From NCBI RefSeq assembly GCF_004212215.1, contig NZ_QVFV01000001.1:692814-756813 (forward strand): a stretch of 64,000 bases of DNA, written 5' to 3'. The notes beneath the pieces are model-generated. The model saw only the letters and a list, made by a program, of their open reading frames with translations. It did no database searches and was not told the DNA's origin. Source of the stretch: Leptolyngbya iicbica LK (lineage in GTDB: Bacteria; Cyanobacteriota; Cyanobacteriia; Phormidesmidales; Phormidesmidaceae). How positions within the stretch are numbered: the first letter of the stretch is position 1; the number at the start of each line of letters is the position of its first letter. This document shows, piece by piece, positions 44,980-60,132 of this stretch. The position numbers and the translations under genes were made by a program.

Positions 44980-45072
44980 TCAGGAACGCGGCCAAAGCCT
45001 GACAGGGATGATCTCTAACCAAGGCTGAGGATGAAACGCCGGGCAATCTGGCTGTTGCGACCATCATTGAAA

Positions 45073-45122
45073 GCGCCACTTTACTGTTGAGGCAATATCG
45101 AAGCAACGGAGTAAAGTGACGC
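45073..45122 (+). terminator. Long hairpin, possible terminator
   Basis: CACTTTACT (45078-45085 region) pairs with AGTAAAGTG (about 45110-45119), extended inward by GTTG/CAAC and outward by GCG/CGC, followed after a few bases by TTTT. The stem is long but interrupted, and the T-run is short. Confidence 0.4.
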
Positions 45123-45171
45123 TCTCAGTTTTGAAGGGCTCTCGTCAGGGAGGAAATGGCGCAAGCATTGG

Positions 45172-45585
45172 CTAACGATTGAGCTCTCGACATGCAGCTC
45201 GCCAAGCGGCAGGCACATTGCGAGCGATTTGAGTAATTTTGCGAGTAGCCTGTTGCAGCACTTGCCGCGATCGCTCCAAACTCTGACTTACAGCGCCTGC
45301 AGACTCATCCTCAGGGCCGTCAGTCATAACTTGAATATGTCGCGGGGATGAGTGTGACCAGCGAGTGTCGAGCCCTGGGACAGTGTCCTGAGTAAAGTCA
45401 GGCAGCGTAGTCGCAGATCCCCAAAAATCATCAAACCATTCAGCGTTAGGAAACGAGTCATCAGCGTTGAAATAGCGCACATGACGCCGACCATTCAGAT
45501 CAATTTCTTCCCAACCTTGCACCTCCGGCTCACGACCATTGGGCTGAATAACTGTGATTTGATAACGACGAGCTTGATAGCGCAT
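45172..45585 (-). CDS. Hypothetical protein
   Basis: A 137-residue soluble protein that I do not recognise. The N-terminal half is beta-like (Y-Q-I-T-V-I-Q-P-N-G-R-E-P-E-V-Q-G-W), the middle is acidic with aromatic residues (D-A-E-W-F-type F-D-D-F-W-G), and the C-terminal part is a basic amphipathic helix (R-S-R-Q-V-L-Q-Q-A-T-R-K-I-T-Q-I-A-R). Ordinary codon use with two HIP1 sites nearby. Divergent from stpA, 185 bases apart. Confidence 0.6.
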   Translation of the reverse strand: MRYQARRYQITVIQPNGREPEVQGWEEIDLNGRRHVRYFNADDSFPNAEWFDDFWGSATTLPDFTQDTVPGLDTRWSHSSPRHIQVMTDGPEDESAGAVSQSLERSRQVLQQATRKITQIARNVPAAWRAACRELNR

Positions 45586-45770
45586 CTTCCGCTCCTCCGC
45601 TAATCTTCTCAGTCCCTTTGAGTGTAGACAGCCTGGTGAGCGGCATGGGTTCGGTTTAATGATCGCTACGAGTAGTGATTGCAGTATGGGGCAGCGGCAT
45701 CAATCCCCCGGCAGAGCCCTCAGCGACAGCATCCTGATAGGCTGAGGCAGAAGCCAACCTGACATCCACC

Positions 45771-47054
45771 ATGACCTCTGCCACTGATCTGCCGTTGCAC
45801 GCTCAAACGTATTCTCTCGATCACGATCGCTTCATAGCGCTGCTCAGCCAAACCGAAAATCTACTGATCATTCAAGATTTGGATGGCGTATGTATGGGCC
45901 TGGTCAAAGACCCCCTCGACCGCCAAATTTCGACCGAGTATGTAACAGCAACCCAGGCATTTGATGGCCATTTTTTTGTGTTGACCAACGGCGAACATAT
46001 TGGTGAGCGGGGCGTCAACGGCATCATTGAACGAGCCTTTGGCGATGCCACCACCGTCAAACAAGCAGAGCGTTACTTACCTGGCTTGGCCGCTGGGGGC
46101 GTACAGTGGCAAACCCGTCAGGGCCACCTATCGCATCCTGGTGTTAGCAAAGCCGAGTTAGCTTTTTTAAAGCAGGTCCCCGATCGCATTCGTGCCTGTT
46201 TACGGCAATTTGTTCAGACTCACCCGCTGCCGCTAGATGCTGAAACCATCGAGCATTGTATTCAGTCTTCGGCGCTGGAAAATGTGGCATCGCCAACCGC
46301 CAACCTCAACACCTTCCATAGCGCTTTGGACGGCGATCACAAAACTTACTTAGCCCTTCAAAAAGCCATGCAGTCACTGATGGATGACTTGTTGGCCGAA
46401 GCCGCCGCCCAGGGACTAGAGGATGCGTTCTTTGTCCATTACGCCCCAAACCATGGTCGCGATCAGCACGGACAAGAGGTCATTTGGCTCAGCCAGGGAG
46501 CAGAATCAGGGACGACTGATTTTCAGTTCATGTTGCGGGGCGCGATCAAAGAAGCGGGCGTGTTGGCGCTGCTCAATCGCTATTATGCGCAGCGCACCGG
46601 ACACTATCCTCTTGGGGAAGATTTCAGCGTGCGGGTGGCCCCTCATGATCATCAGGCGCTGATTCAACTCGTGCAAGATAAGTTTGACCCGGCGCTGATG
46701 CCGCTGATGGTCGGCGTCGGCGATACCGTCACCAGCAAAGTGATGGTAGAGGCGGGGCAGTCGGTAGCCAAGCGGGGCGGCAGCGATCGCAACTTTTTGC
46801 AACTGGTGCAAGATATTGGGCGATCGCTGGGGGTCGGCAATGTTGTGACCTATGTGGATAGCAGTGGCGGCGAACTGAAGAATCGCCGCCCGCTCACGGT
46901 TGAGCAACGTAATGGTCAACCAGTCGTAACTGCTGGACCGGGAGATCCCGCCGACCAAAGTGATCCCCTCACGCTAAATGTTGTTTTTCCAGGGGGCTAC
47001 CAGGAATACTGTGCCGCCTTCCAAACGGCAGCGACGAACCGCCGCCAAGCTTAA
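45771..47054 (+). CDS. stpA: Glucosylglycerol-3-phosphatase
   Basis: StpA removes the phosphate from glucosylglycerol-phosphate to give glucosylglycerol, the main compatible solute of moderately halotolerant cyanobacteria; it works with GgpS, which is not in this window. Seen in 427 residues: L-I-I-Q-D-L-D-G-V-C-M-G-L-V-K-D-P (the acid-phosphatase Asp loop), F-V-L-T-N-G-E-H, F-V-H-Y-A-P-N-H-G-R-D, Q-F-M-L-R-G-A-I-K-E-A-G, V-G-V-G-D-T-V-T-S, and R-G-G-S-D-R-N-F-L-Q-L-V-Q. Length agrees with Synechocystis StpA. This is the strongest single marker of a salt-adapted lifestyle here. Confidence 0.93.
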   Translation: MTSATDLPLHAQTYSLDHDRFIALLSQTENLLIIQDLDGVCMGLVKDPLDRQISTEYVTATQAFDGHFFVLTNGEHIGERGVNGIIERAFGDATTVKQAERYLPGLAAGGVQWQTRQGHLSHPGVSKAELAFLKQVPDRIRACLRQFVQTHPLPLDAETIEHCIQSSALENVASPTANLNTFHSALDGDHKTYLALQKAMQSLMDDLLAEAAAQGLEDAFFVHYAPNHGRDQHGQEVIWLSQGAESGTTDFQFMLRGAIKEAGVLALLNRYYAQRTGHYPLGEDFSVRVAPHDHQALIQLVQDKFDPALMPLMVGVGDTVTSKVMVEAGQSVAKRGGSDRNFLQLVQDIGRSLGVGNVVTYVDSSGGELKNRRPLTVEQRNGQPVVTAGPGDPADQSDPLTLNVVFPGGYQEYCAAFQTAATNRRQA

Positions 47055-47193
47055 GCCGTCGATGACCGGGCAGGCATTGTAGTTGGGCAGTCAGTTGACG
47101 CAATGCTGCTGGAACAGGCTCGTTCAGCGATGAAAAAGGCCGCTGGCTGAGGCTGACAATGGCCTGTCTGAAAAAATGAACTTTGAGCAGTGG

Positions 47194-47931
47194 CTACGGC
47201 ACCATCGACGCTGCGTCGGGTAAGGCAGAGAGACTCAGCAAATCGGCCGGAATCAAGTCATCCAGCTCCACTGCATCGAGTAGCGCATTCCAATCGTCAG
47301 AATTTTCGGCATCTTGCTTCAGGCGGGCCGAGGCCGCGATCGCGTCGTACCAGAGCCCCGCTTCGGCATAGAGAGCCGGTAACTCAGCCTCGCTAGCACT
47401 CGCTGCGATTTCCAGGGGCTCGACTCGCGCCATTTGGCCTTCGGCGACCACATCAGCGCTGGGGTCAGCCGGATTACAAATGACTGAGATGTACCAAACA
47501 TACGCTTCACCTACGGCGAGCGGCTGCTGAATCCCGTTATCAGGTAAGCTCACGCTCGCAATGCCAGCACTACCGTCAATCTTGAAGCGCCCTTCGTAAA
47601 GTAATTCATTGGTGCTTTCGTTGAGCAGCACAAATTTCAGATGCTCGGCGGTCGTTTCTGGCAGGTAAAAATAAACGGTGGGAAAAGCGCTCTCCGTCAG
47701 CCCATAGTTGCTCTCTGGTATGAGCGCCACCAGCCTCTCGTCAGGGGCGATGCAAGTAGCACTGCGAGTTGAACCGGATTCGCGGTTGCCGGGGGCGCTG
47801 ATGTCAGGCAATCGTAATTGGATATTGCTTTGGGCGATCGCAGGCCCCACTAGCGACAGCACACTCCCGCCTAATAACAAACCAGCGGATACAGACAGAG
47901 TCCAACTTGATAATGGCAAACGACTTTTCAT
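47194..47931 (-). CDS. DUF928 domain protein, paralogue 2
   Basis: A 245-residue exported protein. Seen: signal peptide (hydrophobic W-T-L-S-V-S-A-G-L-L-L-G-G-S-V-L then P-A-I-A-Q), T-C-I-A-P-D-E-R-L-V-A-L-I-P, P-T-V-Y-F-Y-L-P, and V-W-Y-I-S-V-I-C-N-P-A-D-P, with the two Cys of the DUF928 core; a helical hairpin L-Y-A-E-A-G-L-W-Y-D-A-I-A follows. Start at ATG 47931, since residues up to 47976 precede the signal. Divergent from a CHASE2 gene 415 bases away. Function unknown. Confidence 0.85.
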   Translation of the reverse strand: MKSRLPLSSWTLSVSAGLLLGGSVLSLVGPAIAQSNIQLRLPDISAPGNRESGSTRSATCIAPDERLVALIPESNYGLTESAFPTVYFYLPETTAEHLKFVLLNESTNELLYEGRFKIDGSAGIASVSLPDNGIQQPLAVGEAYVWYISVICNPADPSADVVAEGQMARVEPLEIAASASEAELPALYAEAGLWYDAIAASARLKQDAENSDDWNALLDAVELDDLIPADLLSLSALPDAASMVP

Positions 47932-48346
47932 AAACCTGAATCCACCTAACTTACGGATGTGACGACTGACTAACAAAATTCAAAATTAATGACAATGACA
48001 ACGCAGCTTTTAGTCGTAACGCCTGACCAGAGCAGTGTCACCTACTCGTTTTTCACCGTCGGTAGGGTAACCTACTATGCCAAGGCGCAAGGGCTGCGTG
48101 GGGAAGCTGATGTTTCGCTTCGACAACAGTGTATTTAACAGGGTAGCGAAGTTCACTCTGAACCTAGTACCTCAGTTATAAGCGCAGTCACCGGGAACTA
48201 CACCCGAAGATGTCGGGATTACAGATCACTGTTACAGTTCTTGAGTGAATTTTATAATCACGGCATCCCCACGTGCGGCAGCGATCTCCCCCGTTAGAAT
48301 TAGATGACGTTGCTGACTGACTTTTGCTCCCGCTTACTTGATCAAT
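47932..48346. promoter_or_regulatory. Divergent region between DUF928 and CHASE2 genes
   Basis: 415 bases that must hold both promoters. A short hairpin GTAGG-GTAA-CCTAC occurs at about 48061-48075. No clear operator. The middle is locally AT-rich (ACTGTTACAGTTCTTGAGTG). A shared control of both genes is inference from the arrangement. Confidence 0.45.
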
Positions 48347-49972
48347 ATGGCTTTTCCGCCCCCTCCTAAAAGTTCCCCGCAATCGTCCCGATGGCAACGT
48401 CTGCTGGCCCAGGCGGGCAAAGTTGGTCAGCCGTCAGTGCTCGCGACGCTGGCAGCCAGCGCATTAGTGCTCGGGGTGCGTGCCGTCGGTGCCTTACAAG
48501 GGCTAGAGCTAGGGCTGTACGACCAGATGATGCGGCTGCGACCCACGCCCTTGCCTGACGATCGCATCCTCGTCGTGGGTATCGACGAAACCGATATTCA
48601 ATCGCGCCAAGAATGGCCCATTCAAGACGACACGATCGCGGAACTCTTATCTGTCTTGATTGAGGCCGAGCCCCGCGCTGTCGGCCTTGATATGTTTCGA
48701 GATTTGCCCATCGGCGAGGGGCGAGACACGCTGCTCGAGCAAATTCAAAACAACAGCACCATTTTTCCGGTTTGCAAAATTAGTAGTCCCGATAATCCAG
48801 GGGTACCGCCCCCCCCCGGCACTCCAGAAGCCCAAGTTAGCTTTTCTGATTTAGTCGTTGATCCGGGAGGGATCTTGCGGCGGAGTCTGTTGATTGCGGC
48901 GCCACCGACTGATGCCGATACGGTCGGCACCCACATTTGCAATGATCCCAACGCTCAACTGTTTTCGTTAGGGTTACAACTGGCGCGACAATACCTCACC
49001 ACCGAAGGCATAGAACTTGAGGTGACCGCTGAACAAGAGCTTCGTTTCGGCAACGTCGTTTTGTCGAGACTGCAATCGAACCTGGGCGGATATCACAACA
49101 TTGATGCCCAAGGGTATCAAATCATGTTGAACTATCGGGCAGCGAGAATGGCGGTGCCCCAGGTAAGTTTGACAGATGTGTTGTCGGGGGATGTCGGTGC
49201 TGCTCAGATCCGCGATCGCATCGTGCTGATCGGGGCCACCACCCCAGAAGCAAAAGACGAGTTTTATACCCCCTTTAGTGGCGGCTTACGCGACAGTCAA
49301 AAAATGGCGGGCGTGATCGTTCATGCCCAATCCGTCAGTCAAATTTTGAGCGCCGTGTTGGATGATCGGCCCCTGCTGTGGAGTTTGCCAACCTGGGGCG
49401 AGGCCCTGTGGGTCGTCATTTGGGGCCTTGGCGGGGCGCTGTTTGCCACTTATATTCGCCGTCCTGTGACTTACGGAGCCGTCGCGATCGCTCTACTGGG
49501 GGGACTCTATGGCCTGTGCTTTGTTGTCTTCCTACAGGGGGGATGGCTACCGATTGTGCCCGCCGCTTTAGCCCTGGGTTTTGCCTCAGGCGGCGTAGTC
49601 TTGCTCGATCGCTTCAACAAGAGCGATTACGGCCAAGCCGTTTACAAACAAATGAAGGTGCTCCTGCGCTTAGACATTGAGATTGACCACAGCAAAGTGG
49701 GCGAACAGGTCGCCGAAATCACCGATACGGAATACTTCAACACCCTGCAAGCCCAAGCCCGAGAGTTGCGCGCCCGCCGCCAAGGCAAGCAGTCGACAAC
49801 TCCCACCGATACCAGAACGAGCACAACGCCAGCGGCAACATCAGCGTCTGACGAGCCATCGGAGCCCATCACCACCGATGATTATTTGCAAAATTTGAAG
49901 CAGAAAGCGGAGCGCTTCAAATCGACCAGCGACCTCAAGTCCAAATCAGACAAACCGGACGCAGAGAGCTGA
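48347..49972 (+). CDS. CHASE2-domain membrane sensor without output domain
   Basis: A 541-residue protein. Seen: N-terminal TM (about 25-45), an extracytoplasmic CHASE2 domain with L-Y-D-Q-M-M-R-L-R-P, I-L-V-V-G-I-D-E-T-D-I, A-V-G-L-D-M-F-R-D-L-P, Y-H-N-I-D-A-Q-G-Y-Q-I, F-Y-T-P-F and M-A-G-V-I-V-H-A-Q-S-V-S-Q, three C-terminal membrane helices, and a 115-residue cytoplasmic tail (charged, Thr/Ser-rich) with no cyclase, kinase or GGDEF. So it likely signals by protein contact. An in-frame TTG at 48338 is possible; I use ATG 48347. Divergent from DUF928 paralogue 2. Confidence 0.83.
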   Translation: MAFPPPPKSSPQSSRWQRLLAQAGKVGQPSVLATLAASALVLGVRAVGALQGLELGLYDQMMRLRPTPLPDDRILVVGIDETDIQSRQEWPIQDDTIAELLSVLIEAEPRAVGLDMFRDLPIGEGRDTLLEQIQNNSTIFPVCKISSPDNPGVPPPPGTPEAQVSFSDLVVDPGGILRRSLLIAAPPTDADTVGTHICNDPNAQLFSLGLQLARQYLTTEGIELEVTAEQELRFGNVVLSRLQSNLGGYHNIDAQGYQIMLNYRAARMAVPQVSLTDVLSGDVGAAQIRDRIVLIGATTPEAKDEFYTPFSGGLRDSQKMAGVIVHAQSVSQILSAVLDDRPLLWSLPTWGEALWVVIWGLGGALFATYIRRPVTYGAVAIALLGGLYGLCFVVFLQGGWLPIVPAALALGFASGGVVLLDRFNKSDYGQAVYKQMKVLLRLDIEIDHSKVGEQVAEITDTEYFNTLQAQARELRARRQGKQSTTPTDTRTSTTPAATSASDEPSEPITTDDYLQNLKQKAERFKSTSDLKSKSDKPDAES

Positions 49973-50073
49973 TCGGCTTATCCAGTCCTCAACTCTCTGC
50001 GTACAGGTCGTGGCGGAACCGCTGGGGGCGGAGTTTGGAGATTCCAGACCAGTGAGTCAAAACCATGGGGACA

Positions 50074-51528
50074 CTATCGCGGCGGCGACGGTGAACTGGG
50101 TTGATTGCGGTAGCGATCGCAGGTAGCGACAAATTTTTCTGCTAGAGCGGGTTGCCCCCCCCAGTGCACGTGGACATACGCTGCATGCAGCGTCGCTCGT
50201 CCCCAGCCATCGGTGCCCGTTGAGCTAGCTGGCTCATGCAGTAGGGGATAGCTACTGAGGGCAGACAAAGGAGCCGTGGGAGTCGGGGCGATCGCAGAGC
50301 GGTGAAATTCGTGCCCCCAATAGCGTTGGCCGACAGTGGCGACGGCACTATTTTGCAGCGCCGTGACCTGGCGGTAGCCTAGAGTAAGTTGACCAGTCAT
50401 CGTTGTCGTCGCGGGAATCGTCCCCACCATCGGCCACGATCGCCCGTCCAAATCCACCAGCGACTTACACAGATACATCAGGCCGCCACATTCGGCATAG
50501 GTGGGCAAACCTGCGGCCAGAGCTTGAGCGATCGCTCGTCGCATCGCGGTATTTTGAGCCAGCGCTTCCGCAAACATTTCGGGAAAACCGCCGCCGAGCA
50601 GCAGGCCACTTAAATCTGTCGGCAGAGCCGCATCCACCTGGGGACTGAACGGCACCAACTCAGCCCCCAGGCGATTCAAGTAGGCCAAATTATCTTCGTA
50701 ATAGAAGTTGAAAGCGAGATCGCGTGCAATCCCGATCTTCAGTGGTCTGATGGTACGAGCAGAGTGGGCAAGCGGTGGGATCGCGGCCCTAGATACCTCA
50801 GCACTGGGGAACGCATCGGTAGCTTTGGCAGAAACCGGGACATTGTTTCCAGAAGCTTGCAATACCCGCTCTAAGGCAGGCCAGTCAAAACATCGCTGGC
50901 CCAAGGCCGCCAAATGTTGGAACCGCTGCGGTAAGTCGGATAACTCGTCTGTGGGCACGAGCCCCAGATGGCGATCGGGCAGGGCCACCGCATCATCGCG
51001 CCGCAATACTCCCAATACGGGAATCTGTAGCGGCGCGATCGCGGCTTGCAACATGGCGAGATGGCGATCGCTGCCTACCCGGTTGAGCACCACGCCCACC
51101 AGCTGCACTTCAGGATCGAGCGTTTGATAACCGTGGACAATCGCCGCCAGCGATCGCGACAGGCGGGCACAATCCACCACTAGCAACACGGGGCAGCCCA
51201 GCAACCGAGCAATGTGGGCCGTGCTGGCCCAGTCCGTCCCCCCGGCCCCGTCAAACAGTCCCATCACCCCTTCGACAATGGCGTAGGTCGCCGTCCCTGC
51301 ATGCCTCTGAAAGCATTGCTGAACATAGCTTTCAGAAGTCATCACCGGATCTAAGTTATAAGCTGGACGTCCGGTGATGGCCCGGTGAAACATCGGATCA
51401 ATATAATCAGGCCCAACCTTGAACGCCTGCACCGTGACGCTACGCTGCCGCAGGGCCGAGAGCAGCGCCATGGTTACCGTCGTTTTGCCCGCACTGCTGC
51501 GATCGCCCGCAATAATCAATCCACCCAT
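50074..51528 (-). CDS. cobB: Cobyrinate a,c-diamide synthase
   Basis: CobB/CbiA amidates the a and c side chains of cobyrinate in vitamin B12 synthesis, using glutamine and ATP. Seen in 484 residues: L-I-I-A-G-D-R-S-S-A-G-K-T-T-V (P-loop), F-K-V-G-P-D-Y-I-D-P-M-F-H, V-E-G-V-M-G-L-F-D-G, L-L-L-G-G-G-F-P-E, and the amidase Cys in T-Y-A-E-C-G-G-L-M-Y-L, with G-H-E-F-H at the end region. Downstream of hpt on the same strand, 148 bases apart. No cobalamin riboswitch seen upstream. Confidence 0.94.
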   Translation of the reverse strand: MGGLIIAGDRSSAGKTTVTMALLSALRQRSVTVQAFKVGPDYIDPMFHRAITGRPAYNLDPVMTSESYVQQCFQRHAGTATYAIVEGVMGLFDGAGGTDWASTAHIARLLGCPVLLVVDCARLSRSLAAIVHGYQTLDPEVQLVGVVLNRVGSDRHLAMLQAAIAPLQIPVLGVLRRDDAVALPDRHLGLVPTDELSDLPQRFQHLAALGQRCFDWPALERVLQASGNNVPVSAKATDAFPSAEVSRAAIPPLAHSARTIRPLKIGIARDLAFNFYYEDNLAYLNRLGAELVPFSPQVDAALPTDLSGLLLGGGFPEMFAEALAQNTAMRRAIAQALAAGLPTYAECGGLMYLCKSLVDLDGRSWPMVGTIPATTTMTGQLTLGYRQVTALQNSAVATVGQRYWGHEFHRSAIAPTPTAPLSALSSYPLLHEPASSTGTDGWGRATLHAAYVHVHWGGQPALAEKFVATCDRYRNQPSSPSPPR

Positions 51529-51676
51529 GCGTTTCTCTCACGACTCTCAACAGATGCCTGACGCGGCTCAACCAACACCTGTTGGATCAACGAATTGCAC
51601 CTGTTCAACAGCTTGCGCCCGCTGGACAAATCACATTCACCCCAGGGCGCAGCACGATTCATCATGGCAAGCCAGA

Positions 51677-52210
51677 CTATTCCACCGATTCAATGGCGTA
51701 GATATCAGGCAAGTCGCGGTAGCGCTCATCCCAATCGAGGCCGTAGCCGATCACAAACTTGTCTTCAATGGTGATGCCGCAGTAATCAATATCGACGGGC
51801 ACCACCCGCCGCTCAGGCTTACTCAACAGGCTACAGAGCTTGATGGAAGCGGGCTGTTGTGCCTTCAGTAGGTTCAGGGCCACGGTGGTCGATCGCCCCG
51901 AATCCACAATGTCTTCCACCAGCAAGACGTGCTGATTGGTGACGGCACCCGGAGGTAACTCGACCAGCACCCGCACCTCGCCAGAACTCTCAGTACCCGC
52001 ACCATAGCTGGATAGCCGCAACAGCTCAACCCGGTCGACGGGGGTCTTGAGAGCGCGAATCAGATCGGCGACAAAAATAAACGCCCCTTTGAGTACGGTG
52101 ACCACAACCAGCGATCGCCCCACATAATCTCGGTCAATTTCAGCCGCCAAGGCTTGCACCGTTTGGGCAATTTTCTCCTTTGAGATATAAACCACCCACT
52201 GATCGTTCAT
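51677..52210 (-). CDS. hpt: Hypoxanthine phosphoribosyltransferase
   Basis: Purine salvage enzyme joining hypoxanthine (or guanine) to PRPP. Seen in 177 residues: V-L-K-G-A-F-I-F-V-A-D-L-I (first loop), S-S-Y-G-A-G-T-E-S-S-G, the PRPP motif V-L-L-V-E-D-I-V-D-S-G-R-S, C-S-L-L-S-K and Y-C-G-I-T-I-E-D-K-F-V-I-G-Y-G-L-D-W-D-E-R-Y-R. Start ATG at 52210; the upstream in-frame part to 52282 is not family-like. Complete catalytic set. Confidence 0.95.
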   Translation of the reverse strand: MNDQWVVYISKEKIAQTVQALAAEIDRDYVGRSLVVVTVLKGAFIFVADLIRALKTPVDRVELLRLSSYGAGTESSGEVRVLVELPPGAVTNQHVLLVEDIVDSGRSTTVALNLLKAQQPASIKLCSLLSKPERRVVPVDIDYCGITIEDKFVIGYGLDWDERYRDLPDIYAIESVE

Positions 52211-52405
52211 TGCCGCATCCTCTCCAACTGGCTTCTGTATTTTGCCAGAGTGTTTACTCGCCCAACGCCACGACCGCAACAAACCAGCGATAAGCTCACC
52301 TTTTCAGCCTTATCAACAAAATTTCACACCTTCAAGACTTACATCTAAGCGACATTGAAGATAGACTTTAGTTAATGGGAATTAATTTTTGATAGCATTT
52401 AATCT

Positions 52406-52852
52406 ATGGACGCTCTTGGGGTAATTCCGGTGTCGACACATCCTGAACTAGCTGAATTGGCTGCGCTGGTGCCCGTGCTCGGCTTAGCAGATGCCTCGAC
52501 CTTAGCTCCGAAGTCGGTGTTGGAAGCCTGCATTTTTGCGACGGTTTTGATCGGCTTCATCGGCATTATTTGGAAGCGTAACTTAATGATGAAAACCCTG
52601 GCAATGGATGTCATGAGCACCGGGGTCATTGCCTTTTATGTGTTGGTGGCCGCTCGCCCGGGCCTCTTTTCGCCCATTTTGACCGAGGGGCGCGAAGTGG
52701 CGTATGCCGACCCAGTGCCGCAGGCGGTGATTTTGACGGCGATCGTCATTGGCTTTTCGGTTCAGGCGTTGATGTTAGTAGGCGTGATGAAGCTGTCGCG
52801 CGATAACCCCACCCTGGATACCCAGGAGATCGAGCGGAGCCACACGCCATGA
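52406..52852 (+). CDS. mrpC: Mrp Na+/H+ antiporter subunit C-like
   Basis: First gene of the Mrp operon. MrpC/MnhC is related to NuoK of complex I and helps ion exchange. Seen in 148 residues: three hydrophobic segments (A-C-I-F-A-T-V-L-I-G-F-I-G-I-I-W; V-M-S-T-G-V-I-A-F-Y-V-L-V; A-V-I-L-T-A-I-V-I-G-F-S-V-Q-A-L-M-L) with D-P-x-x-Q-A-x-I-L-T-A-I-V-I-G, the MrpC/NuoK hallmark. The N-terminal 40 residues are a less typical extension. Stop overlaps the next start by 4 bases (ATGA). No Shine-Dalgarno visible. Confidence 0.85.
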   Translation: MDALGVIPVSTHPELAELAALVPVLGLADASTLAPKSVLEACIFATVLIGFIGIIWKRNLMMKTLAMDVMSTGVIAFYVLVAARPGLFSPILTEGREVAYADPVPQAVILTAIVIGFSVQALMLVGVMKLSRDNPTLDTQEIERSHTP

Positions 52853-54288
52853 CGATGAACACGTTCACCATCTTTTGGATTGCGCTCCCGCTGTTTCTCG
52901 GGTTCAGCAGCTATCTGTTTCCGCGCTCGGGGCGCATCCTCACTTTGGGCGTCGCCTTGACTTCGCTGGTTTACAGTCTGATGTGCTTGTTTCAGGAGGC
53001 GCCCACCACCTTGCAACTGGTGGACAACTTTGGCGTCTCGTTGATGATTGACGACCTCAGCGGCTTCTTCATTCTGACGAATGCGCTGGTGACGGCGGCA
53101 GTGGTGTTTTACTGCTGGCAGCTCAACAAATCCAAATTCTTTTACACGCAGACCGTGATTCTGCACGGCAGCGTCAATGCAGTGTTTATCTGTGCCGACC
53201 TCATTAGTCTGTATGTGGCGCTGGAAGTGATTGGCATTGCGGCATTTTTGCTGATTGCCTACACCCGCAGCGATCGCTCCATTTGGGTGGCCCTGCGCTA
53301 TTTGTTTGTCAGCAATACGGCCATGCTGTTTTTCCTGCTGGGGGCAGCGTTGGTGTATCAGCAGAGTCAATCGTTTGCCTTCACGGCCCTGGCGAATGCG
53401 CCGATGGATGCGATCGCGCTGATTTTTGTCGGCTTACTGACCAAGGGCGGCATTTTTGTGTCGGGGTTGTGGCTGCCGCTCACTCACTCGGAATCGGAAA
53501 CCCCCGTGTCGGCCATGCTGTCTGGGGTGGTGGTGAAGTCGGGCATTTATCCGCTAGCCCGCTTTGCCCTGATGTTCGAAGACATTGACCCGATTGTCCG
53601 CTTCTTTGGGGTGGGTACGGCATTGCTGGGCGTAGGCTACGCCGTGTTTGAAAAAGACACCAAACGTATGTTGGCCTTTCACACCGTGTCGCAGTTGGGG
53701 TTTGTGTTGGCCGCGCCAGAGGTGGGCGGGTTCTATGCGCTGACCCATGGTTTGGTCAAGTCAGCCCTGTTCTTAATTGCGGGTAACTTGCCCAGTCGCA
53801 ATCTCAAAGAATTGCGCCACCAACCCATTCCCCGCGCCGTCTGGGTGGCGTTGGCGATCGCCAGTTTCTCCATCTCCGGCTTCCCCCTGTTGTCAGGCTT
53901 TGGGGCCAAAGTGTTGACGATGAAAAATCTCTTGCCCTGGCAGGTCATCGGCATGAACGTGGCCGCCTTGGGAACAGCGATTTCCTTTGCCAAATTCATC
54001 TTTTTGCCCCATAGCAGTGAGGTACAAAGTTCGGTGAAGTCTGGCTTCTGGGGTGCCATGACACTGCTGTTGGGCGGCTTAGTCTTTGCCAATGTGGTGT
54101 ACTACGAAGCCTACACCCTGGGCAATATCGTCAAACCGCTGGTCACGATTTTCCTGGGGTGGCTGGCCTACTGGTTCATCTTTCGCCGGGTGGCGATCAA
54201 GCTGCCGCGCGTGGTCGAGCAATTTGACCATTTGATTGGCGTCATGAGCCTGATGTTGATGTTCTTGTTTGGGATGGTGCTGGCATGA
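52849..54288 (+). CDS. mrpD: Mrp Na+/H+ antiporter subunit D
   Basis: Proton/cation-conducting membrane subunit related to NuoN/NuoM. Seen in 479 residues, about 13-14 membrane helices: I-S-L-Y-V-A-L-E-V-I-G-I-A-A-F-L-L (the conserved Glu), G-L-L-T-K-G-G-I-F (conserved Lys), W-L-P-L-T-H-S-E, and S-G-V-V-V-K-S-G-I-Y-P-L-A-R, all typical of the antiporter-like family. Overlaps neighbours on both sides by 4 bases. Only one MrpD gene is present here. Confidence 0.9.
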   Translation: MTMNTFTIFWIALPLFLGFSSYLFPRSGRILTLGVALTSLVYSLMCLFQEAPTTLQLVDNFGVSLMIDDLSGFFILTNALVTAAVVFYCWQLNKSKFFYTQTVILHGSVNAVFICADLISLYVALEVIGIAAFLLIAYTRSDRSIWVALRYLFVSNTAMLFFLLGAALVYQQSQSFAFTALANAPMDAIALIFVGLLTKGGIFVSGLWLPLTHSESETPVSAMLSGVVVKSGIYPLARFALMFEDIDPIVRFFGVGTALLGVGYAVFEKDTKRMLAFHTVSQLGFVLAAPEVGGFYALTHGLVKSALFLIAGNLPSRNLKELRHQPIPRAVWVALAIASFSISGFPLLSGFGAKVLTMKNLLPWQVIGMNVAALGTAISFAKFIFLPHSSEVQSSVKSGFWGAMTLLLGGLVFANVVYYEAYTLGNIVKPLVTIFLGWLAYWFIFRRVAIKLPRVVEQFDHLIGVMSLMLMFLFGMVLA

Positions 54289-54686
54289 TCGGATACCTTG
54301 ACCTGCTGCTGCGGCTGACCATCTGGTTTTTGCTGACGGCGGATCTCAGCCCCGCCAACATTATCATCGGGGTTTGTATCGCCTTGATTTTGCCCCGCAA
54401 CCGTACCGTCACGGCGGTGCTCAAAGATTGGCTCCATGCGATTTGGGAAATCATCGTCGCCATTCCCACGGCCTATATCGAAGCGGTGGAAATCATCTTG
54501 CGCCCCCACACAGCCGAAGACACCGTGATGGAGCGGGTGAAGCCAAACCGCACCCCGGGCCTGATTTTTTTGGACATCTTTTTGATTACCTTTACGCCCA
54601 AAACCATCGTGCTGAAATATCACGAAGACGGTCGCTATGAGGTGCATCGCGTGCGCCGCCGAAAACTCAAGCAAGGAGGGGAGTAG
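54285..54686 (+). CDS. mrpE: Mrp Na+/H+ antiporter subunit E
   Basis: A 133-residue membrane protein of the MnhE family. Seen: L-T-I-W-F-L-L-T-A-D-L-S-P-A-N-I-I-I-G at the N-terminus, A-I-W-E-I-I-V-A-I-P-T-A-Y-I-E-A, T-P-G-L-I-F-L-D-I-F-L-I-T-F-T-P-K-T-I, then a basic tail. The N-terminal W-F-x-L-T and P-G pattern fits MnhE. Start ATG overlaps the mrpD stop. Confidence 0.85.
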   Translation: MIGYLDLLLRLTIWFLLTADLSPANIIIGVCIALILPRNRTVTAVLKDWLHAIWEIIVAIPTAYIEAVEIILRPHTAEDTVMERVKPNRTPGLIFLDIFLITFTPKTIVLKYHEDGRYEVHRVRRRKLKQGGE

Positions 54687-54687
54687 C

Positions 54688-54939
54688 ATGAACGGCATTT
54701 TGATTGCCATGATTTTGGCGTTGCTCATCCCCATTTACGAAGCGTGGCAGGACGAAGATATTTGGCAAAAAATGTTGGCCTTTGCCAGTATCGCCACCAA
54801 AACCTCCATCATGATTTTGGTCGTGTCAGTGCTGCGAGATGACTGGATGATCGGCCTCGTCGGCGTGTTGATTTTGAGTGTGGGCAATGCCGCCCTCATG
54901 CTGTTGGCCCACATTATTCGGAGGTTGAACGAAGCATGA
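54688..54939 (+). CDS. mrpF: Mrp Na+/H+ antiporter subunit F
   Basis: An 83-residue protein with three predicted helices (G-I-L-I-A-M-I-L-A-L-L-I-P; T-S-I-M-I-L-V-V-S-V-L; I-G-L-V-G-V-L-I-L-S-V-G-N-A-A-L-M-L-L). Size and position between E and G identify it as MnhF/MrpF, which was implicated in bile-salt and Na+ export in other bacteria. Strong AAGGAGGGG before ATG 54688. Confidence 0.85.
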   Translation: MNGILIAMILALLIPIYEAWQDEDIWQKMLAFASIATKTSIMILVVSVLRDDWMIGLVGVLILSVGNAALMLLAHIIRRLNEA

Positions 54940-55214
54940 TCGACTTTTTCAGTTACGGCCTTATGGTCTTGGGGGTCATCTTTTGGTTTTGGGGCACGTT
55001 GCCCCTCTTGGGACATCGCTCCGTGCTGTTCAAACTCCACAGTCTTTCGGTGGCCGATACCTTGGGCTCTATGAGCATCGTTGCGGGCCTCTTGCTCAAA
55101 ATTCCAGGTGAATGGCCGCTACTGGTTTTAGCGATCATCTGCCTGGCGATTTGGAATACGGTGCTGGGCTACGTGCTGGCTTACTGTTCGAGTACGGGAG
55201 GGGAAGATGCTTGA
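54936..55214 (+). CDS. mrpG: Mrp Na+/H+ antiporter subunit G
   Basis: A 92-residue MnhG/PhaG-family protein with three helices. Seen: G-V-I-F-W-F-W-G-T-L-P-L, H-R-S-V-L-F-K-L-H-S-L-S-V-A-D-T-L-G-S (the R-x-x-x-x-K-L-H-S and A-D-T-x-G signature of MrpG), then hydrophobic helix I-V-A-G-L-L-L-K. Overlaps mrpF by 4 bases and the next gene by 8. Confidence 0.9.
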   Translation: MIDFFSYGLMVLGVIFWFWGTLPLLGHRSVLFKLHSLSVADTLGSMSIVAGLLLKIPGEWPLLVLAIICLAIWNTVLGYVLAYCSSTGGEDA

Positions 55215-55845
55215 GAATTTAGATGTGGTGGCGATCGCGGCGCTCTTGCCCATCACCGCCTGCATGTTGGTCACCCAAGTCAATCCCTATCACGCGCTGA
55301 TTATCCGCGGCATTGTGGGCGCAGTGGCAGCGCTGGTGTATGCCCTGTTTGGCGCGGCCGATGTGGCGTTGACCGAGGCTTTGGTCGGCACCATGCTGTC
55401 GATTACGCTGTATGCGATCGCCGTGCGGTCTTCCATGAGTTTGCGCCTGGGCACCTTGGCCCCTGCCCTGCCCAATCCTGACGCAGTGTCCGCCCCCCTA
55501 ACTCAGCAGCTCTTTCCCGCTCTTCGCCAGGCCTTGAAAAAACATCACCTGCGTTTAGAGGTCTTACCCTACACCAGTGCTCAGGCCTTGCAGCTAGCGC
55601 TGGAAAATAAAGAGATTCACGCTGTGTGTCTACCCGCCGCTCAGCTCGACCCAGGGGAGACTACCGACGATTTAACCGCCCCCTACGTGTTGAATATTCG
55701 CCTGCCCCGACTGTATGAAATTTTGGGTGCTGCCCTGCCGCCTGAAATTGCGGCGGTGAACTTTTCACGGGCGCTACGGTTGATGCCAGCGGAGCCGCCC
55801 TCCCCTGACAGCCAATTACAAAATGCCTTGGAGGGTCAGCCATGA
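55207..55845 (+). CDS. DUF4040/MbhD-type subunit with soluble tail (MrpA C-terminal equivalent)
   Basis: A 212-residue protein. The first 85 residues form three helices with I-R-G-I-V-G-A-V-A-A-L-V-Y and G-A-A-D-V-A-L-T-E-A-L-V-G-T-M-L-S, i.e. the DUF4040/MbhD module that in Bacillus is the C-terminal part of MrpA. The N-terminal NuoL-like part of MrpA is absent, as is common in cyanobacterial Mrp operons. The remaining 125 residues are soluble (L-R-L-E-V-L-P-Y-T-S-A-Q-A-L-Q-L-A-L-E-N-K) and reminiscent of a solute-binding-like or regulatory fold that I cannot name. Confidence 0.8.
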   Translation: MLENLDVVAIAALLPITACMLVTQVNPYHALIIRGIVGAVAALVYALFGAADVALTEALVGTMLSITLYAIAVRSSMSLRLGTLAPALPNPDAVSAPLTQQLFPALRQALKKHHLRLEVLPYTSAQALQLALENKEIHAVCLPAAQLDPGETTDDLTAPYVLNIRLPRLYEILGAALPPEIAAVNFSRALRLMPAEPPSPDSQLQNALEGQP

Positions 55846-56504
55846 AGTGGATTTATATTGCCGCCGCGATCGCCCTCTATTTGAAAATGCTGGTGTTTCC
55901 CAGCCCCGCCGTCGACACCGCCGAGCTCTCCATCGTCGAGTTGGTGGTCGAAGATAGCGGCGTTGTTAACGCGGTGTCGGGCATTATCTTTCGCAATCGG
56001 TTGTACGACACGATCTTTGAGGTGGTCGTGTTCAGCATCGCTATTATGGGCGTGCGGTTTTTGCTGGCCGATGAGCAGCCTTCCTGCACGGTTTACCAAT
56101 TCACCGATGATCCCTCAATCGTTCTGGCCCGTTTGGGGGCGACGATCGCGGCGCTGGTCAGTATCGAACTCGCTATTCGCGGTCACCTGAGTCCTGGCGG
56201 CGGTTTTGCCGCAGGGGTCGCTGGGGGCACTGCGATCGGTCTGGTCGCCATCACCTCATCGTCGAGCCTGATGGAATCGATCTACCAGCGCTGGCAGGCC
56301 GCCACCCTCGAAAAAGTATCGGTATTAATCTTTATTGTGATCGCGGCCCTGTCGCTCATCGGCATTGAACTGCCTCAAGGCGAACTTGGCTCCCTCCTCA
56401 GCGGCGGCTGGATTCCCCTGCTGAATATCTTGGTCGCCATCAAAGTAGCCCTCGGCGCCTGGGCGGCGATTCTAGTCTTCATTCGTTATCGCGGTTTGCT
56501 GTAG
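55842..56504 (+). CDS. mrpB: Mrp Na+/H+ antiporter subunit B
   Basis: Last gene of the operon, 220 residues, MnhB family. Seen: five or six helices; S-I-E-L-A-I-R-G-H-L-S-P-G-G-G-F-A-A-G-V-A-G-G-T, which is the conserved H-x-S-P-G-G-G-F motif of MrpB; and the N-terminal D-T-A-E-L-S-I-V-E-L-V-V-E-D-S-G-V-V-N-A-V region. The two last helices are long and hydrophobic. ATGA overlap with the preceding gene; about 290 non-coding bases follow. Confidence 0.9.
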   Translation: MKWIYIAAAIALYLKMLVFPSPAVDTAELSIVELVVEDSGVVNAVSGIIFRNRLYDTIFEVVVFSIAIMGVRFLLADEQPSCTVYQFTDDPSIVLARLGATIAALVSIELAIRGHLSPGGGFAAGVAGGTAIGLVAITSSSSLMESIYQRWQAATLEKVSVLIFIVIAALSLIGIELPQGELGSLLSGGWIPLLNILVAIKVALGAWAAILVFIRYRGLL

Positions 56505-56811
56505 CCGCCAGACCAGCCTCGTTGGCAATAACGACCGAGGAAAATCGGCGGTGTTGGCGGCGATCTGAGGTCCCGGGCGAGCCATCGCTGGTTGGCTTAG
56601 GCGAGACCGTGACCGCGCGATCGCTGACTGGTCCCGTTGGCCCTTGTGGTTGGCCAAAGGGATTGGTAGATCTCATTCTGTCATCGCTGAAATGAACCGA
56701 TATTGAACGAAATCGCGGTGGTTTTTCCTCAAAATAAAAAATGATGTTGTAGAGCTATGGAGAGAGCGGTTCGTCCGATTACACTGCAAATACTTGACTC
56801 AGGGACTGTTG
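56505..56811. other. Intergenic region after the Mrp operon
   Basis: About 307 bases with two HIP1-like sites and an AT-rich stretch (CTCAAAATAAAAAATGATGTTG near 56725) probably belonging to the promoter of the next DUF928 gene. A short minus-strand frame here is not supported. No terminator with a T-run was seen after mrpB. Confidence 0.45.
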
Positions 56812-57501
56812 ATGATGATTTCAACTTCTACCAAACGAATTAGTCTAGCCTTACCCATCAGTGGCTTAATGCTGGCTACAGCGATGGTCTGGCCTGCCGT
56901 CGCCCAAGACCAAAACGAGTTTCCGGGACGGCGAATCGGTGGGGGAACCCGTGGCGGCTGCGTGATTAACGCGGCTGGCGTCATCGCGATCAATCCTGAA
57001 AACAATTTGGGGGTCACCCAGCGTGAGGCACCGACCTTATATTTCGCGGTGCCCGCCACGGCGGAGCCTTATCAAGTGACGTTTTACTTAGAAACTGAAG
57101 ACGCCGAGCCCCTCTATGAGACAACCGTAGCAGCGGGGGACAAAGCGGAACTGATCGGGGTACAGCTTCCCGCAGACACCCTCACGGCGGGGGAATATTA
57201 TCCCTGGTCCTTTGCGGCGAATTGTGATGAAACCAACCCAGCAACCGCGATCGTGGTGAACGGCTGGTTGCAACAAACGGCGCTGGACTCAGAGGCGATC
57301 GCCGAAGCTGAGTCACCCTTGGCCCAGGTGCAAGCCTATCAAGCGGCAGGGCTGTGGAGTGACGCGATCGCCCTGACAGCAGAACTGCTGGCAGCTAACC
57401 CTGACTGTGAAGAATATCAGGCGCAGTGGTCGGCACTGTTAGAAGCGTTAGGCCTGGAGCAGGCAATTGATGCCCCAATGTCAGTGCGTCTACCGATGTA
57501 A
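56812..57501 (+). CDS. DUF928 domain protein, paralogue 3
   Basis: A 229-residue exported protein: signal peptide (L-A-L-P-I-S-G-L-M-L-A-T-A-M-V-W then P-A-V-A-Q), Gly/Arg-rich linker, G-G-C-V-I-N-A-A-G-V-I-A, P-T-L-Y-F-A-V-P, Y-P-W-S-F-A-A-N-C-D-E-T-N-P (the second DUF928 Cys motif), then Q-A-A-G-L-W-S-D-A-I-A-L-T-A-E-L-L, the helical hairpin. It precedes a CHASE2-GGDEF-EAL gene by 19 bases in the same direction, so the two almost certainly form an operon. ATG 56812 used; ATG 56815 or TTG 56794 are alternatives. Confidence 0.85.
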   Translation: MMISTSTKRISLALPISGLMLATAMVWPAVAQDQNEFPGRRIGGGTRGGCVINAAGVIAINPENNLGVTQREAPTLYFAVPATAEPYQVTFYLETEDAEPLYETTVAAGDKAELIGVQLPADTLTAGEYYPWSFAANCDETNPATAIVVNGWLQQTALDSEAIAEAESPLAQVQAYQAAGLWSDAIALTAELLAANPDCEEYQAQWSALLEALGLEQAIDAPMSVRLPM

Positions 57502-57520
57502 CCGAGTGAGGATGTGAAGC

Positions 57521-60058
57521 TTGCCTCGACTGGCAACTTTTTTACAACAGGTGCGATCGCGGGTGAGTCGTCGGGGACAAGCGCCGCAATCGCCTCGCGT
57601 TGTGCCGCAAATCTTTTGGGCCGCATTACGCTCGGTGCTGATTTCTAGCACGGTGGTAGTCGGCGTGTGCGGGGTCGCCCAGCGCGCCGGCTGGCTAGAA
57701 CCGCTGGAACTCGCGATGTACGACCAATGGGTGCGATCGCGATCGGCCCTGCCCCCGGATGAGCGGCTGCTCATCATCGGGATCGAAGAAGCCGACATTC
57801 GCCGCTATGGTTGGCCGCTCAGCGATGAAGTATTGGCTGATGCGCTCAACCGGCTGCAGACGGTCAATCCCAGCGTCATCGGACTCGATATCTATCGCGA
57901 CTTGCCAGTGACACCAGGCGAAGCAGCCCTGGTTGAGGCATTAGCGGCGACTAATGTCATTGCCATTACTAACCAGGCGTTTGCGATTCCGCCCCCGCCG
58001 ACGGTGCCCCCAGAGCGAGTCGGATTTAATGACTTTACCCTCGACACCGATGGCGTGCTACGGCGCAACTTATTGCAGGTGGGTGATGGCGCCGACCCTT
58101 ACTTTTCGTTTGCACAACAGGTCAGCCGCTTACATTTAGCCCAGCAGGGCAAGACGTTCGACTACACATCTCAGGCCCTAATTTGGGATGAGGTGGTTTT
58201 AGAGCGCTTGCAACGCACGGATGGCGGCTATCAAACCGCCGATGTGCGGGGTTACCAAATTTTGTTGGACTATCGGGGTGCTGAGGCGATCGCCCCCACC
58301 CTGACCCTGCATGAACTGCTGACTACCCCCCCGGCTGCGCTCCCCGACCTTACGGACCGGGTGGTGTTGATTGGCAGTGTCGCCCCTAGTCTCAAAGACT
58401 TTTTGCCCACCCCTTACAGCGCCGTGCAGCAAGAGTCCTTTCAAATGTCGGGGGTGATGGTGCATGCCCAGATGGTCAGCCAGGTACTGGATGTAGTCGC
58501 CGGTACGCGCCCCCAGTTTCGTTACTGGCCACAATGGCTAGAGGTGCTGTGGCTCTGGGCTTGGGCGATCGCGGGTAGCCTGTTGGCGTGGCGATTACGG
58601 CGACCGATTGTGTTAACCATCGTCGCGCTGGGCGGCATCAGTGTGATTGTGCTCACCAGTGCCACTTTGTTCACAATCCACGTGTGGATTCCGGTGGTGG
58701 GGCCGGTGCTGGCATTTGTCGGGGCGTTGGGCTTGGCCATGACCCACCGGGTGTTTTACACCACCTCGCACGACGCTTTGACGGGTGCCCTAAACCAAAG
58801 TTCTCTGACGGCTTACCTGCGGCGATCTCTGAAACAGCGTCAACGGCAGCACCAACCACAACCGCTGGGCCTCTTATACGTGCATCTCGATCAGTTGGGC
58901 CTGGTCAATAGCAGCCTGGGCCAAACAACGGGCAATTACATGTGGCTGGAACTCATGTCACGACTGCGATCGCGGCTGCCCAAGACGGCCCGCATTGCCC
59001 GCATTGATGAAGACGATTGTGCGATCGCCCTTCCCGCTTTCGATAAAGCCGCCCTGGAAACCCTGGCGAACCAACTGCGGGACGATGTCGCCCAGCCGAT
59101 CGTCATTCCCCCGCAACAGTCAGTGGTGACCGACACCAATATCGGCATTGCTATTACCCAGCCCGACTACGTTCACACCGCCGAAAACCTCATGCGCGAT
59201 GCCCATACCGCCATGTTTCGCGCTCGTTCGCTCGGCCAAACCCAATATCAAGTGTTTGCCACTGGCATGTTAGAAGCCAATGTGCAGCGCTTTGCCCTAG
59301 AGGGGGAACTGCGTCAGGGGCTGGCGAACCAACAGTTTGAACTGTATTACCAGCCCATCGTCTCTCTAAAAAGCGATCGCATCGCCGGGTTCGAGGCCCT
59401 CATTCGCTGGCAACATCCTCAACGAGGCTTCATCTCGCCGGGCATGTTTGTTCCCCTCGCCGAAGAAACGGGCTTGATCATTCCTCTCGGCAAGTGGATT
59501 TGTGAAACCGCCTGCCAACAAGCCTACGTTTGGAAACAACAATTTCCCGACTGGCCCCTGCTCATCAGCATTAACCTCTCTGGTCGGCAGTTTGAGCAGC
59601 CCGATCTGGTGGAACAATTAGCCGCCATCATGCACGATCGCCAACTGTATGGCCTCACCTTTAAGCTCGAAGTGACCGAAAGCATGGTGATGGGCGATGT
59701 GGAAGCCGCCATTGACCTGATGTTTAAGCTGCGATCGCTCGGCTGCAAGTTGAGCCTCGATGACTTTGGCACGGGCTATTCCTCCCTCAGCTATCTGCGC
59801 CGGTTTCCCATCGATACCCTCAAGGTCGATCAATCCTTTGTGCGCAATATGCATAGTGCTGAAGACTTTGCCATTGTCCGCACCATCGTGGATCTGGCCC
59901 ATACCCTCGGCATGGACGTGATTGCCGAGGGAGTCGAAACCCTTGAAGATGTGGCAGCCTTGCGATCGCTCGGCGCCGAATATGGCCAGGGCTACTACTG
60001 GGCCAAGCCACTCGCCGCCGCCGCCGCCACCGAGTTTTTGGCGCAAAGTTTTCAGTAA
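57521..60058 (+). CDS. CHASE2 receptor with degenerate GGDEF and EAL domains
   Basis: An 845-residue membrane receptor starting at TTG 57521 (GAGGATG upstream). Seen: TM 1 at about 33-55; CHASE2 at about 60-320 (M-Y-D-Q-W-V-R-S-R, L-L-I-I-G-I-E-E-A-D-I, I-G-L-D-I-Y-R-D-L-P); three helices to about 408; a GGDEF-like domain (about 415-575) starting D-A-L-T-G-A-L-N but with R-I-D-E-D-D in place of GGDEF, so no diguanylate cyclase activity is expected; and an EAL domain (about 590-840) with G-F-E-A-L-I-R-W, N-L-S-G-R-Q, E-V-T-E-S, D-D-F-G-T-G-Y-S-S-L and V-I-A-E-G-V-E-T, which looks catalytically competent. Predicted to lower c-di-GMP in response to an extracytoplasmic cue, perhaps via the DUF928 protein encoded just upstream. 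Confidence 0.9.
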   Translation: MPRLATFLQQVRSRVSRRGQAPQSPRVVPQIFWAALRSVLISSTVVVGVCGVAQRAGWLEPLELAMYDQWVRSRSALPPDERLLIIGIEEADIRRYGWPLSDEVLADALNRLQTVNPSVIGLDIYRDLPVTPGEAALVEALAATNVIAITNQAFAIPPPPTVPPERVGFNDFTLDTDGVLRRNLLQVGDGADPYFSFAQQVSRLHLAQQGKTFDYTSQALIWDEVVLERLQRTDGGYQTADVRGYQILLDYRGAEAIAPTLTLHELLTTPPAALPDLTDRVVLIGSVAPSLKDFLPTPYSAVQQESFQMSGVMVHAQMVSQVLDVVAGTRPQFRYWPQWLEVLWLWAWAIAGSLLAWRLRRPIVLTIVALGGISVIVLTSATLFTIHVWIPVVGPVLAFVGALGLAMTHRVFYTTSHDALTGALNQSSLTAYLRRSLKQRQRQHQPQPLGLLYVHLDQLGLVNSSLGQTTGNYMWLELMSRLRSRLPKTARIARIDEDDCAIALPAFDKAALETLANQLRDDVAQPIVIPPQQSVVTDTNIGIAITQPDYVHTAENLMRDAHTAMFRARSLGQTQYQVFATGMLEANVQRFALEGELRQGLANQQFELYYQPIVSLKSDRIAGFEALIRWQHPQRGFISPGMFVPLAEETGLIIPLGKWICETACQQAYVWKQQFPDWPLLISINLSGRQFEQPDLVEQLAAIMHDRQLYGLTFKLEVTESMVMGDVEAAIDLMFKLRSLGCKLSLDDFGTGYSSLSYLRRFPIDTLKVDQSFVRNMHSAEDFAIVRTIVDLAHTLGMDVIAEGVETLEDVAALRSLGAEYGQGYYWAKPLAAAAATEFLAQSFQ

Positions 60059-60132
60059 CGCTGCGGTACCTCGTAATTTGGCATCATAGGCTGGAGGTCT
60101 ATTCGGGCGCTCAGTCGCTCCTGGTCAATTCG

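Follow-up and report, generated by a model that had tools for sequence, protein, structure and literature searches.

The 64,000-nucleotide stretch of the Leptolyngbya iicbica LK genome analysed here (contig NZ_QVFV01000001.1, positions 692,814 to 756,813; referred to as the window) raises the question why a gene for an apparently exported protein with DUF928, a domain of unknown function, lies back to back with a gene for a CHASE2 receptor, and whether the two products act together. We propose that DUF928 proteins are secreted periplasmic cognate subunits, i.e., co-receptors, of cyanobacterial CHASE2 receptors, and we would give this reading a probability of roughly 0.7. Its basis is computational and combines adjacency of the genes, co-occurrence of the families, paired inheritance, a signal-like N-terminus, a predicted fold and one gene fusion, which together lead to the co-receptor reading. 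An outside partner for CHASE2 from a new family that is widespread in Cyanobacteriia is the novel element of this proposal.

The DUF928 open reading frame (ORF; 47194–47976, minus strand, PF06051 E 6.5e-44) has a TTG start and scores 150.3 bits against a curated Pfam cut-off of 26, and the CHASE2 receptor ORF divergent to it (48338–49972, plus strand, 544 aa, likely ATG at 48347, PF05226 E 1.8e-67) reaches 228 bits against 26.3. Both genes are well over the cut-offs, and their divergent arrangement given in the preliminary description of this locus has been confirmed. Since an internal ATG at 47931 opens a typical signal peptide (47833–47931, minus strand, read by eye, with a hydrophobic core and AIA before Q), the likely DUF928 gene is 47194–47931. 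A hydrophobic N-terminal stretch has been found in 104 of 114 aligned DUF928 proteins (from 117 non-redundant DUF928 ORFs) by a crude hydropathy rule, and the signal-like character of the N-terminus is a reading by eye and by this rule. The CHASE2 domain of the receptor comprises residues 41–367 (48458–49438, plus strand). In the AlphaFold2 (AF2) model of the receptor, with a mean predicted local distance difference test score (pLDDT) of 89.1, helices span residues 11–46 and then 349–369, 373–396 and 404–425, which would be compatible with one transmembrane helix before the domain and three after it.

The adjacency of both families has been found to exceed random expectation by far. In five near-complete genomes, 32 of 46 DUF928 genes are located within 3 kb of a CHASE2 match, compared with 0.72 expected, and the tail probability of this count under uniform placement is 2e-47; the 32 pairs comprise 26 tandem, 6 divergent and no convergent arrangements. 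The counts cover 46 of 47 DUF928 matches (leaving out a second same-frame piece in genome G006, and retaining as unpaired a G011 fragment in a 56-residue frame) and 70 of 71 CHASE2 matches (leaving out one fragment of a G005 gene that is split), and the expectation is based on rounded sizes for G006 and G011. In the larger set of the window and the fetched loci, a CHASE2 ORF lies within 3 kb of 65 of the 91 DUF928 ORFs (55 tandem, 9 divergent and 1 convergent pairs). Among plasmids, 17 records match the window DUF928, 16 of which belong to the 30 records with a CHASE2 match, and the best places for the two families are less than 3 kb apart in 11 records; on a conjugative Nostoc plasmid, hemagglutinin, CHASE2 and DUF928 are annotated consecutively. 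Fourteen well-known genomes taken as controls have shown no DUF928 matches (0/14), and CHASE2 matches in two. Chance or passive hitch-hiking as the origin of the adjacency could appeal to the abundance of CHASE2, as the window genome alone holds 11 CHASE2 matches beside 6 DUF928 matches, four of these six being within 3 kb of CHASE2. This abundance is, however, built into the expectation of 0.72, and the tail probability, the strand bias and the conservation across families and plasmids leave such an origin a virtually negligible probability. Chance adjacency has been rejected on this count, which the preliminary description had put forward as a check on the partnership and which has come out in its favour.

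The recurrence within the window, which had first suggested a link, has likewise been verified. A second DUF928 gene (56794–57501, plus strand, PF06051 E 3.7e-40, 138.1 bits against the cut-off of 26) stands in tandem with a gene for a CHASE2-GGDEF-EAL receptor (57521–60058, plus strand), with 19 bp between them. A third DUF928 gene (19039–19830, plus strand, PF06051 E 2e-25, 90 bits) has its closest CHASE2 match 28.7 kb off. Its product is 61% identical to the DUF928 protein of locus L036 in a congener (G005), where a single ORF separates DUF928 from a CHASE2 kinase-like gene. The product of this gene shares 82% identity with an isolated CHASE2 kinase-like protein encoded at ∼160 kb of the window's contig, and there are flanking genes in common. 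Shared synteny and identities therefore suggest that the third pair has been split here with both halves kept, and the kinase-like protein at ∼160 kb seems to be the likely cognate of the third DUF928, as judged from sequence comparison. With this split, a fifth DUF928 gene among the six of the genome would be explained, beside the four within 3 kb of CHASE2. As a separate observation, tandem arrays of two to three DUF928 genes occur at L075 (G011), L081 and L077 (G016) and L085 (G017), some of which adjoin one CHASE2 gene and others none.

Across the phylum, DUF928 is present in 49 of 146 genomes, all among the 67 Cyanobacteriia, and CHASE2 accompanies it in 49 of 49. Within this class, none of the 11 genomes without CHASE2 carries DUF928 and seven have CHASE2 alone (Fisher 2.5e-8). 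The copy numbers of both families have been found to be closely correlated (Spearman 0.91, and 0.83 after genome size has been removed). As the genomes are related, the p-values of this co-occurrence do not refer to independent events.

Regarding the part of the receptor with which DUF928 is associated, the outputs of neighbouring CHASE2 proteins above Pfam cut-offs are CHAT, hybrid histidine kinase, cyclase, GGDEF, GGDEF-EAL and three TIR domains, and further ones are kinase-like regions below the cut-offs or a tail alone. DUF928-linked receptors thus have at least seven output types, tail included, and the constant element among them is the CHASE2 domain. In a mirror-tree comparison of 57 pairs, DUF928 and CHASE2-domain distances have been found to correlate with r 0.70, compared with 0.12 (standard deviation 0.06) for partners reshuffled within genomes, and 0.70 is reached in none of 2000 reshufflings; for 49 non-redundant pairs, r is 0.60 compared with 0.13 (standard deviation 0.07). 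The 57 pairs have been drawn from the 91 DUF928 ORFs, leaving out multi-piece or <80-bit DUF928 matches, split or short CHASE2 matches, gaps above 2.5 kb and, where two DUF928 genes adjoin one CHASE2, the second copy. The partial correlation with DUF928 divergence is 0.64 for the CHASE2 domain given the output class and 0.09 for the output class given CHASE2, where 3 of the 57 pairs are unassigned and the kinase-like class (9 pairs) is below the Pfam cut-off in the scanned proteins. The divergence of DUF928 follows the CHASE2 domain and not the output, a pattern that fits a partner of the outside domain. In addition, a plasmid of Gemmatirosa kalamazoonensis, and thus DUF928 outside the Cyanobacteria, carries one 924-residue ORF (L220:4929-7703) that joins CHASE2 (E 1.7e-23), a cyclase and DUF928 (E 3.4e-7, 30.6 bits against the cut-off of 26). 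A signal-like hydrophobic stretch precedes DUF928 in this fusion and would put it outside the membrane again. In the ORF set scanned for both families, CHASE2 and DUF928 together have been found in no ORF.

These results also bear on the idea that a CHASE2 pathway has DUF928 among its targets or exported effectors, with the gene located nearby for co-regulation and the protein never touching the receptor. Between the divergent genes of the window, a palindrome, ACTGTTACAGT (48228–48258), overlaps a promoter-like site towards CHASE2, GTTACA-16-TATAAT. An 8-base core of this element (GTAACAGT on the minus strand) is the same in the window and in the four sequences aligned with it; an exact copy of the full palindrome occurs in two of the five, and TATAAT is not kept in all. 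The promoter-like site matches at 10 of 12 positions, the region holds 3 such matches compared with 1.9 in shuffles, and taken alone the site means little; Rfam has given no match in window positions 45000–62000. Divergent genes that share an intergenic region and its conserved core, as in the window type, would suit an effector regulated together with its receptor, and so would the frequent occurrence of CHASE2 without DUF928. An effector that never meets the receptor is nevertheless considered unlikely, as DUF928 accompanies receptors with seven or more output types, its divergence is tied to the CHASE2 domain and not to the output, and the fusion puts both in one chain. Individual loci illustrate the range of neighbours: at L020:8566-16353 (G000:C5, ∼247–255 kb), three TIR domains are fused to CHASE2, with DUF928 downstream and a divergent exoprotein gene of two-partner secretion (TPS); a TIR-annotated CHASE2 protein is encoded ∼2 kb from a DUF928 gene on a Kovacikia plasmid; and at DUF928-linked CHASE2 kinase-like loci, a receiver-LuxR regulator is accompanied by a second small protein that matches no Pfam family (L019:11621-13182).

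The AF2 model of the window DUF928 protein (mean pLDDT 86.5) has the form of a beta sandwich backed by helices, predicted to represent an Ig/FN3 domain followed by TPR-like helices, and the domain covers residues 67–242 of the 260-aa ORF (47251–47778, minus strand). Two cysteines are both kept in 109 of the 114 aligned relatives, and an FN3-type tyrosine corner is conserved (L in 112, Y in 111 and W in 109 of 114). By sequence, the relatives of DUF928 in the PDB are weak matches only, mostly T-cell receptor chains (best E 0.012), and a search with the DUF928 profile extending to E 10 does not list entry 4z29. By structure, the best of 998 re-aligned chains is the C-terminal part of MtxA (4z29_B), with Z 9.0 and a root-mean-square deviation of 3.9 over 142 residues, covering both parts of the model (residues 66–230); the next-best chain, with Z 7.2, covers the sandwich only. 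For the receptor, convincing CHASE2 relatives in the PDB have been found neither by sequence (best E 0.1) nor by Foldseek (best E 1.7), and the best VIA-align hit (Z 6.6) falls on the C-terminal transmembrane helices. The authors of the report on MtxA describe it as secreted and its fold as unique, and in magnetotactic bacteria the gene after mtxA encodes CHASE2 and adenylate cyclase domains (PMC4439547). Because the structure search is blind to CHASE2, the shared CHASE2 neighbour is an independent hint. MtxA resembles DUF928, as predicted for the latter, in being secreted and in having an Ig/FN3-like domain followed by TPR-like helices, and the genes of both adjoin a CHASE2 gene; they differ in that MtxA has an extra N-terminal region and an Ig domain without a disulphide, whereas DUF928 has two conserved cysteines, and in that MtxA comes from another phylum than cyanobacterial DUF928.

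The preliminary description had left the window receptor without any output beyond a short charged tail, which understates what is there and is wrong in detail. No Pfam family apart from PF05226 matches the short CHASE2 protein at E ≤ 0.01, and no Pfam or NCBIfam output domain is over the cut-off. The tail itself has turned out to be more than a charged end, as it holds a conserved 52-residue cytoplasmic module common to HAMP receptors (residues 431–482; 49628–49783, plus strand) and a second, degenerate copy of its motif near the C-terminus (residues 504–532, with a model helix at 510–532; 49847–49933, plus strand). Module and weak second copy are present in all seven short CHASE2 proteins aligned, and no Pfam or NCBIfam model matches the module above cut-off. 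A search with it has yielded 49 matches in 14 of 19 genomes, among them, besides the window module, those at G000:C5:183397, C9:14407 and C10:52043. In the 30 fetched of these 49, the module is C-terminal in dCache-HAMP, small HAMP, receiver-HAMP and Cache-PAS-like proteins, labels which come from Pfam scans for two proteins and from inspection by eye for the others. By their coordinates, at least nine of the 49 matches fall in CHASE2 proteins, CHASE2 counts from the 19-genome listing being lower bounds, and those nine all have a divergent DUF928 gene; in the genome-contig set, which holds ten loci with CHASE2 and tail (four apparently the same loci), DUF928 is within 3 kb at seven and not at three. 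No tail partner gene recurs in 20 stretches with 22 tail proteins, and the neighbours that did recur reflect apparent vertical synteny or scattered common families. The module may be a docking tail that cyanobacterial receptors of several kinds share.

Genes that recur around DUF928 encode TPS-domain exoproteins, CHAT-TPR proteins (some as TPS-CHAT fusions), ShlB-type transporters, DUF1822 and a sigma-like family. In the five genomes, 16 of 46 DUF928 genes are less than 8 kb from a TPS gene, compared with 1.8 expected. This enrichment and the recurrence of TPS, CHAT-TPR and ShlB neighbours would be in line with DUF928 as a periplasmic escort for two-partner secretion or secreted CHAT proteins, with CHASE2 regulating the cluster, as would a few loci, L094, L056 and L082 for example, where TPS, CHAT or ShlB occur with no CHASE2 in view. 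TPS genes are, however, near 15 of the 32 DUF928 genes with CHASE2 and near 1 of the 14 without, and no TPS gene is in view around the window pair, which makes an escort function very unlikely. As a candidate role, a TPS accessory has been weakened by the same contrast, and TPS is thus tied to the DUF928-CHASE2 pair and not to DUF928 as such; correspondingly, TPS is near 15 of 31 CHASE2 genes with DUF928 and 5 of 39 without. For DUF928 as co-receptor, this tie suggests that the pair senses the state of the cell surface, which is the weakest step of the argument, and the nearby-encoded TPS exoproteins and CHAT proteins would presumably be part of what is sensed. Separately, a recurring family found before DUF1822 and CHASE2 (L106:2951-3856 and relatives) has weak similarity to sigma-70 ECF (NCBIfam E 0.0066) and HEPN_AbiU2 (Pfam E 0.0025), and on these grounds is perhaps a divergent sigma factor.

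Several observations weigh against DUF928 as a dedicated CHASE2 subunit. In the five genomes, 14 of 46 DUF928 genes have no CHASE2 inside 3 kb and 39 of 70 CHASE2 matches have no DUF928 inside 3 kb, and an orthologous DUF928 group (L018, L028, L050, L098, L103) has no CHASE2 in view. In the other classes of the phylum, 77 of 79 genomes have CHASE2 and none of the 79 has DUF928. A neighbour survey of these classes (14 genomes, 27 CHASE2 matches, 20 stretches, a CHASE2 ORF being found in 18) has given, at the 18 loci, neither a match of the DUF928 profile (best E 0.71) nor, by eye, a general secreted neighbour; the sole recurring one belongs to two loci of one genus (L235, L236). The CHASE2-DUF928 fusion is a single case. 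The MtxA match, at 14% identity, has a Z of 9.0, not much higher than the 7–8 that models lacking a clear match typically reach; MtxA is outside the Foldseek top 50, whose best row is a glycopeptidase chain (8dek_A, E 3.5e-4, TM-score 0.23), and deletion of mtxA is described in the accessible text as being without phenotype in the conditions tested (PMC4439547). Since genetic linkage alone could give matched DUF928 and CHASE2 trees, the paired inheritance is support and not proof. Apart from these points, a protein-kinase gene, identified by eye, has been seen 3′ of CHASE2 in L223, L226, L230 and L231 of the other classes.

On balance, the suggestion of the preliminary description that DUF928 proteins are extracytoplasmic partners of CHASE2 has gained support from the adjacency, the mirror-tree correlation, the tracking of the CHASE2 domain, the fusion and the MtxA match. 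In the co-receptor reading, DUF928 would be exported via its signal peptide, adopt an Ig/FN3-like sandwich fold with TPR-like helices at its C-terminal end, dock on the CHASE2 domain on the outer side of the inner membrane and control or inform the receptor. We infer that this binding is direct and that the pair senses something outside. DUF928 and CHASE2 would then form an exchangeable sensing head plugged onto varied cytoplasmic outputs, and in the window pair the tail module would presumably dock or recruit a cytoplasmic protein. A wider scheme is offered tentatively and at somewhat unfavourable odds. In it, CHASE2 would be a domain that in essence reads proteins and not small molecules, and its dedicated reader subunit would be a superfamily of secreted Ig-TPR proteins spanning phyla (DUF928 in cyanobacteria and Gemmatimonadota, MtxA in magnetotactic bacteria). 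This subunit would relay the surface state, for instance whether TPS exoproteins have been assembled or proteolysed, to any output fused below, and the subtype without an output domain would act through the docking tail that HAMP receptors use as well. If the co-receptor reading is true, CHASE2 recognition becomes testable through a cognate secreted subunit, a role emerges for DUF928, which occurs in 49 of the 67 Cyanobacteriia sampled, and one is also suggested for MtxA, for which a crystal structure is known and deletion reportedly had no phenotype in the conditions tested.

CHASE2 ligands have been called unknown (PMC10581220), and in the open-licence literature searched, DUF928 has been found by name only in PMC5587647. 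The passage concerned describes a cluster of CHASE2, DUF928 and WD40 genes in Nostoc punctiforme as species-specific among those surveyed, and itself proposes no CHASE2-DUF928 partnership. In the same literature, CHASE2 together with "CHAT domain" has not been found, and CHASE2 with hemagglutinin has given nothing related by title. A part of the DUF928 loci has genes comparable to those of the EACC2-caspase systems, in which, according to the accessible sections, a caspase is fused to variable domains including CHASE2 and most loci have ECF sigma factor and DUF1822 genes, DUF928 not being named there (Kaur 2021, PMC8195603). The two CHASE2 proteins of the window paired with DUF928 have no CHAT or caspase domain and no DUF1822 tag is near their DUF928 genes, whereas such features are present at other DUF928 loci. 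The Burkholderia BiofilmReg operon encodes a response regulator, a secreted LysM-FecR protein and a CHASE2 histidine kinase, and an insertion in it is reported to abolish biofilm (PMC5192318). It resembles the DUF928 pairs in co-encoding a secreted protein with a CHASE2 receptor, and differs, as described there, by having FecR/LysM in place of DUF928 and a kinase output; none of the three DUF928 proteins of the window matches the FecR domain at E ≤ 0.01. On two Ruegeria plasmids, an annotated FecR gene stands directly 5′ of a CHASE2-cyclase gene. The idea that these FecR proteins might be unrecognised relatives of DUF928 or MtxA has been rejected on the basis of one of the two, which has given no DUF928-profile match and no MtxA match in the PDB. 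In Sinorhizobium, NsrA is reported, in the accessible accounts, to be needed for signalling by the CHASE2 cyclases CyaK, CyaD1 and CyaD2, and there too a CHASE2 output depends on another extracytoplasmic protein. NsrA differs in being an outer-membrane beta-barrel, and DUF928 is unmentioned in those accounts. With LysM-FecR in Burkholderia and NsrA in Sinorhizobium as precedents, DUF928 would represent the cyanobacterial solution to an outside partner for CHASE2.

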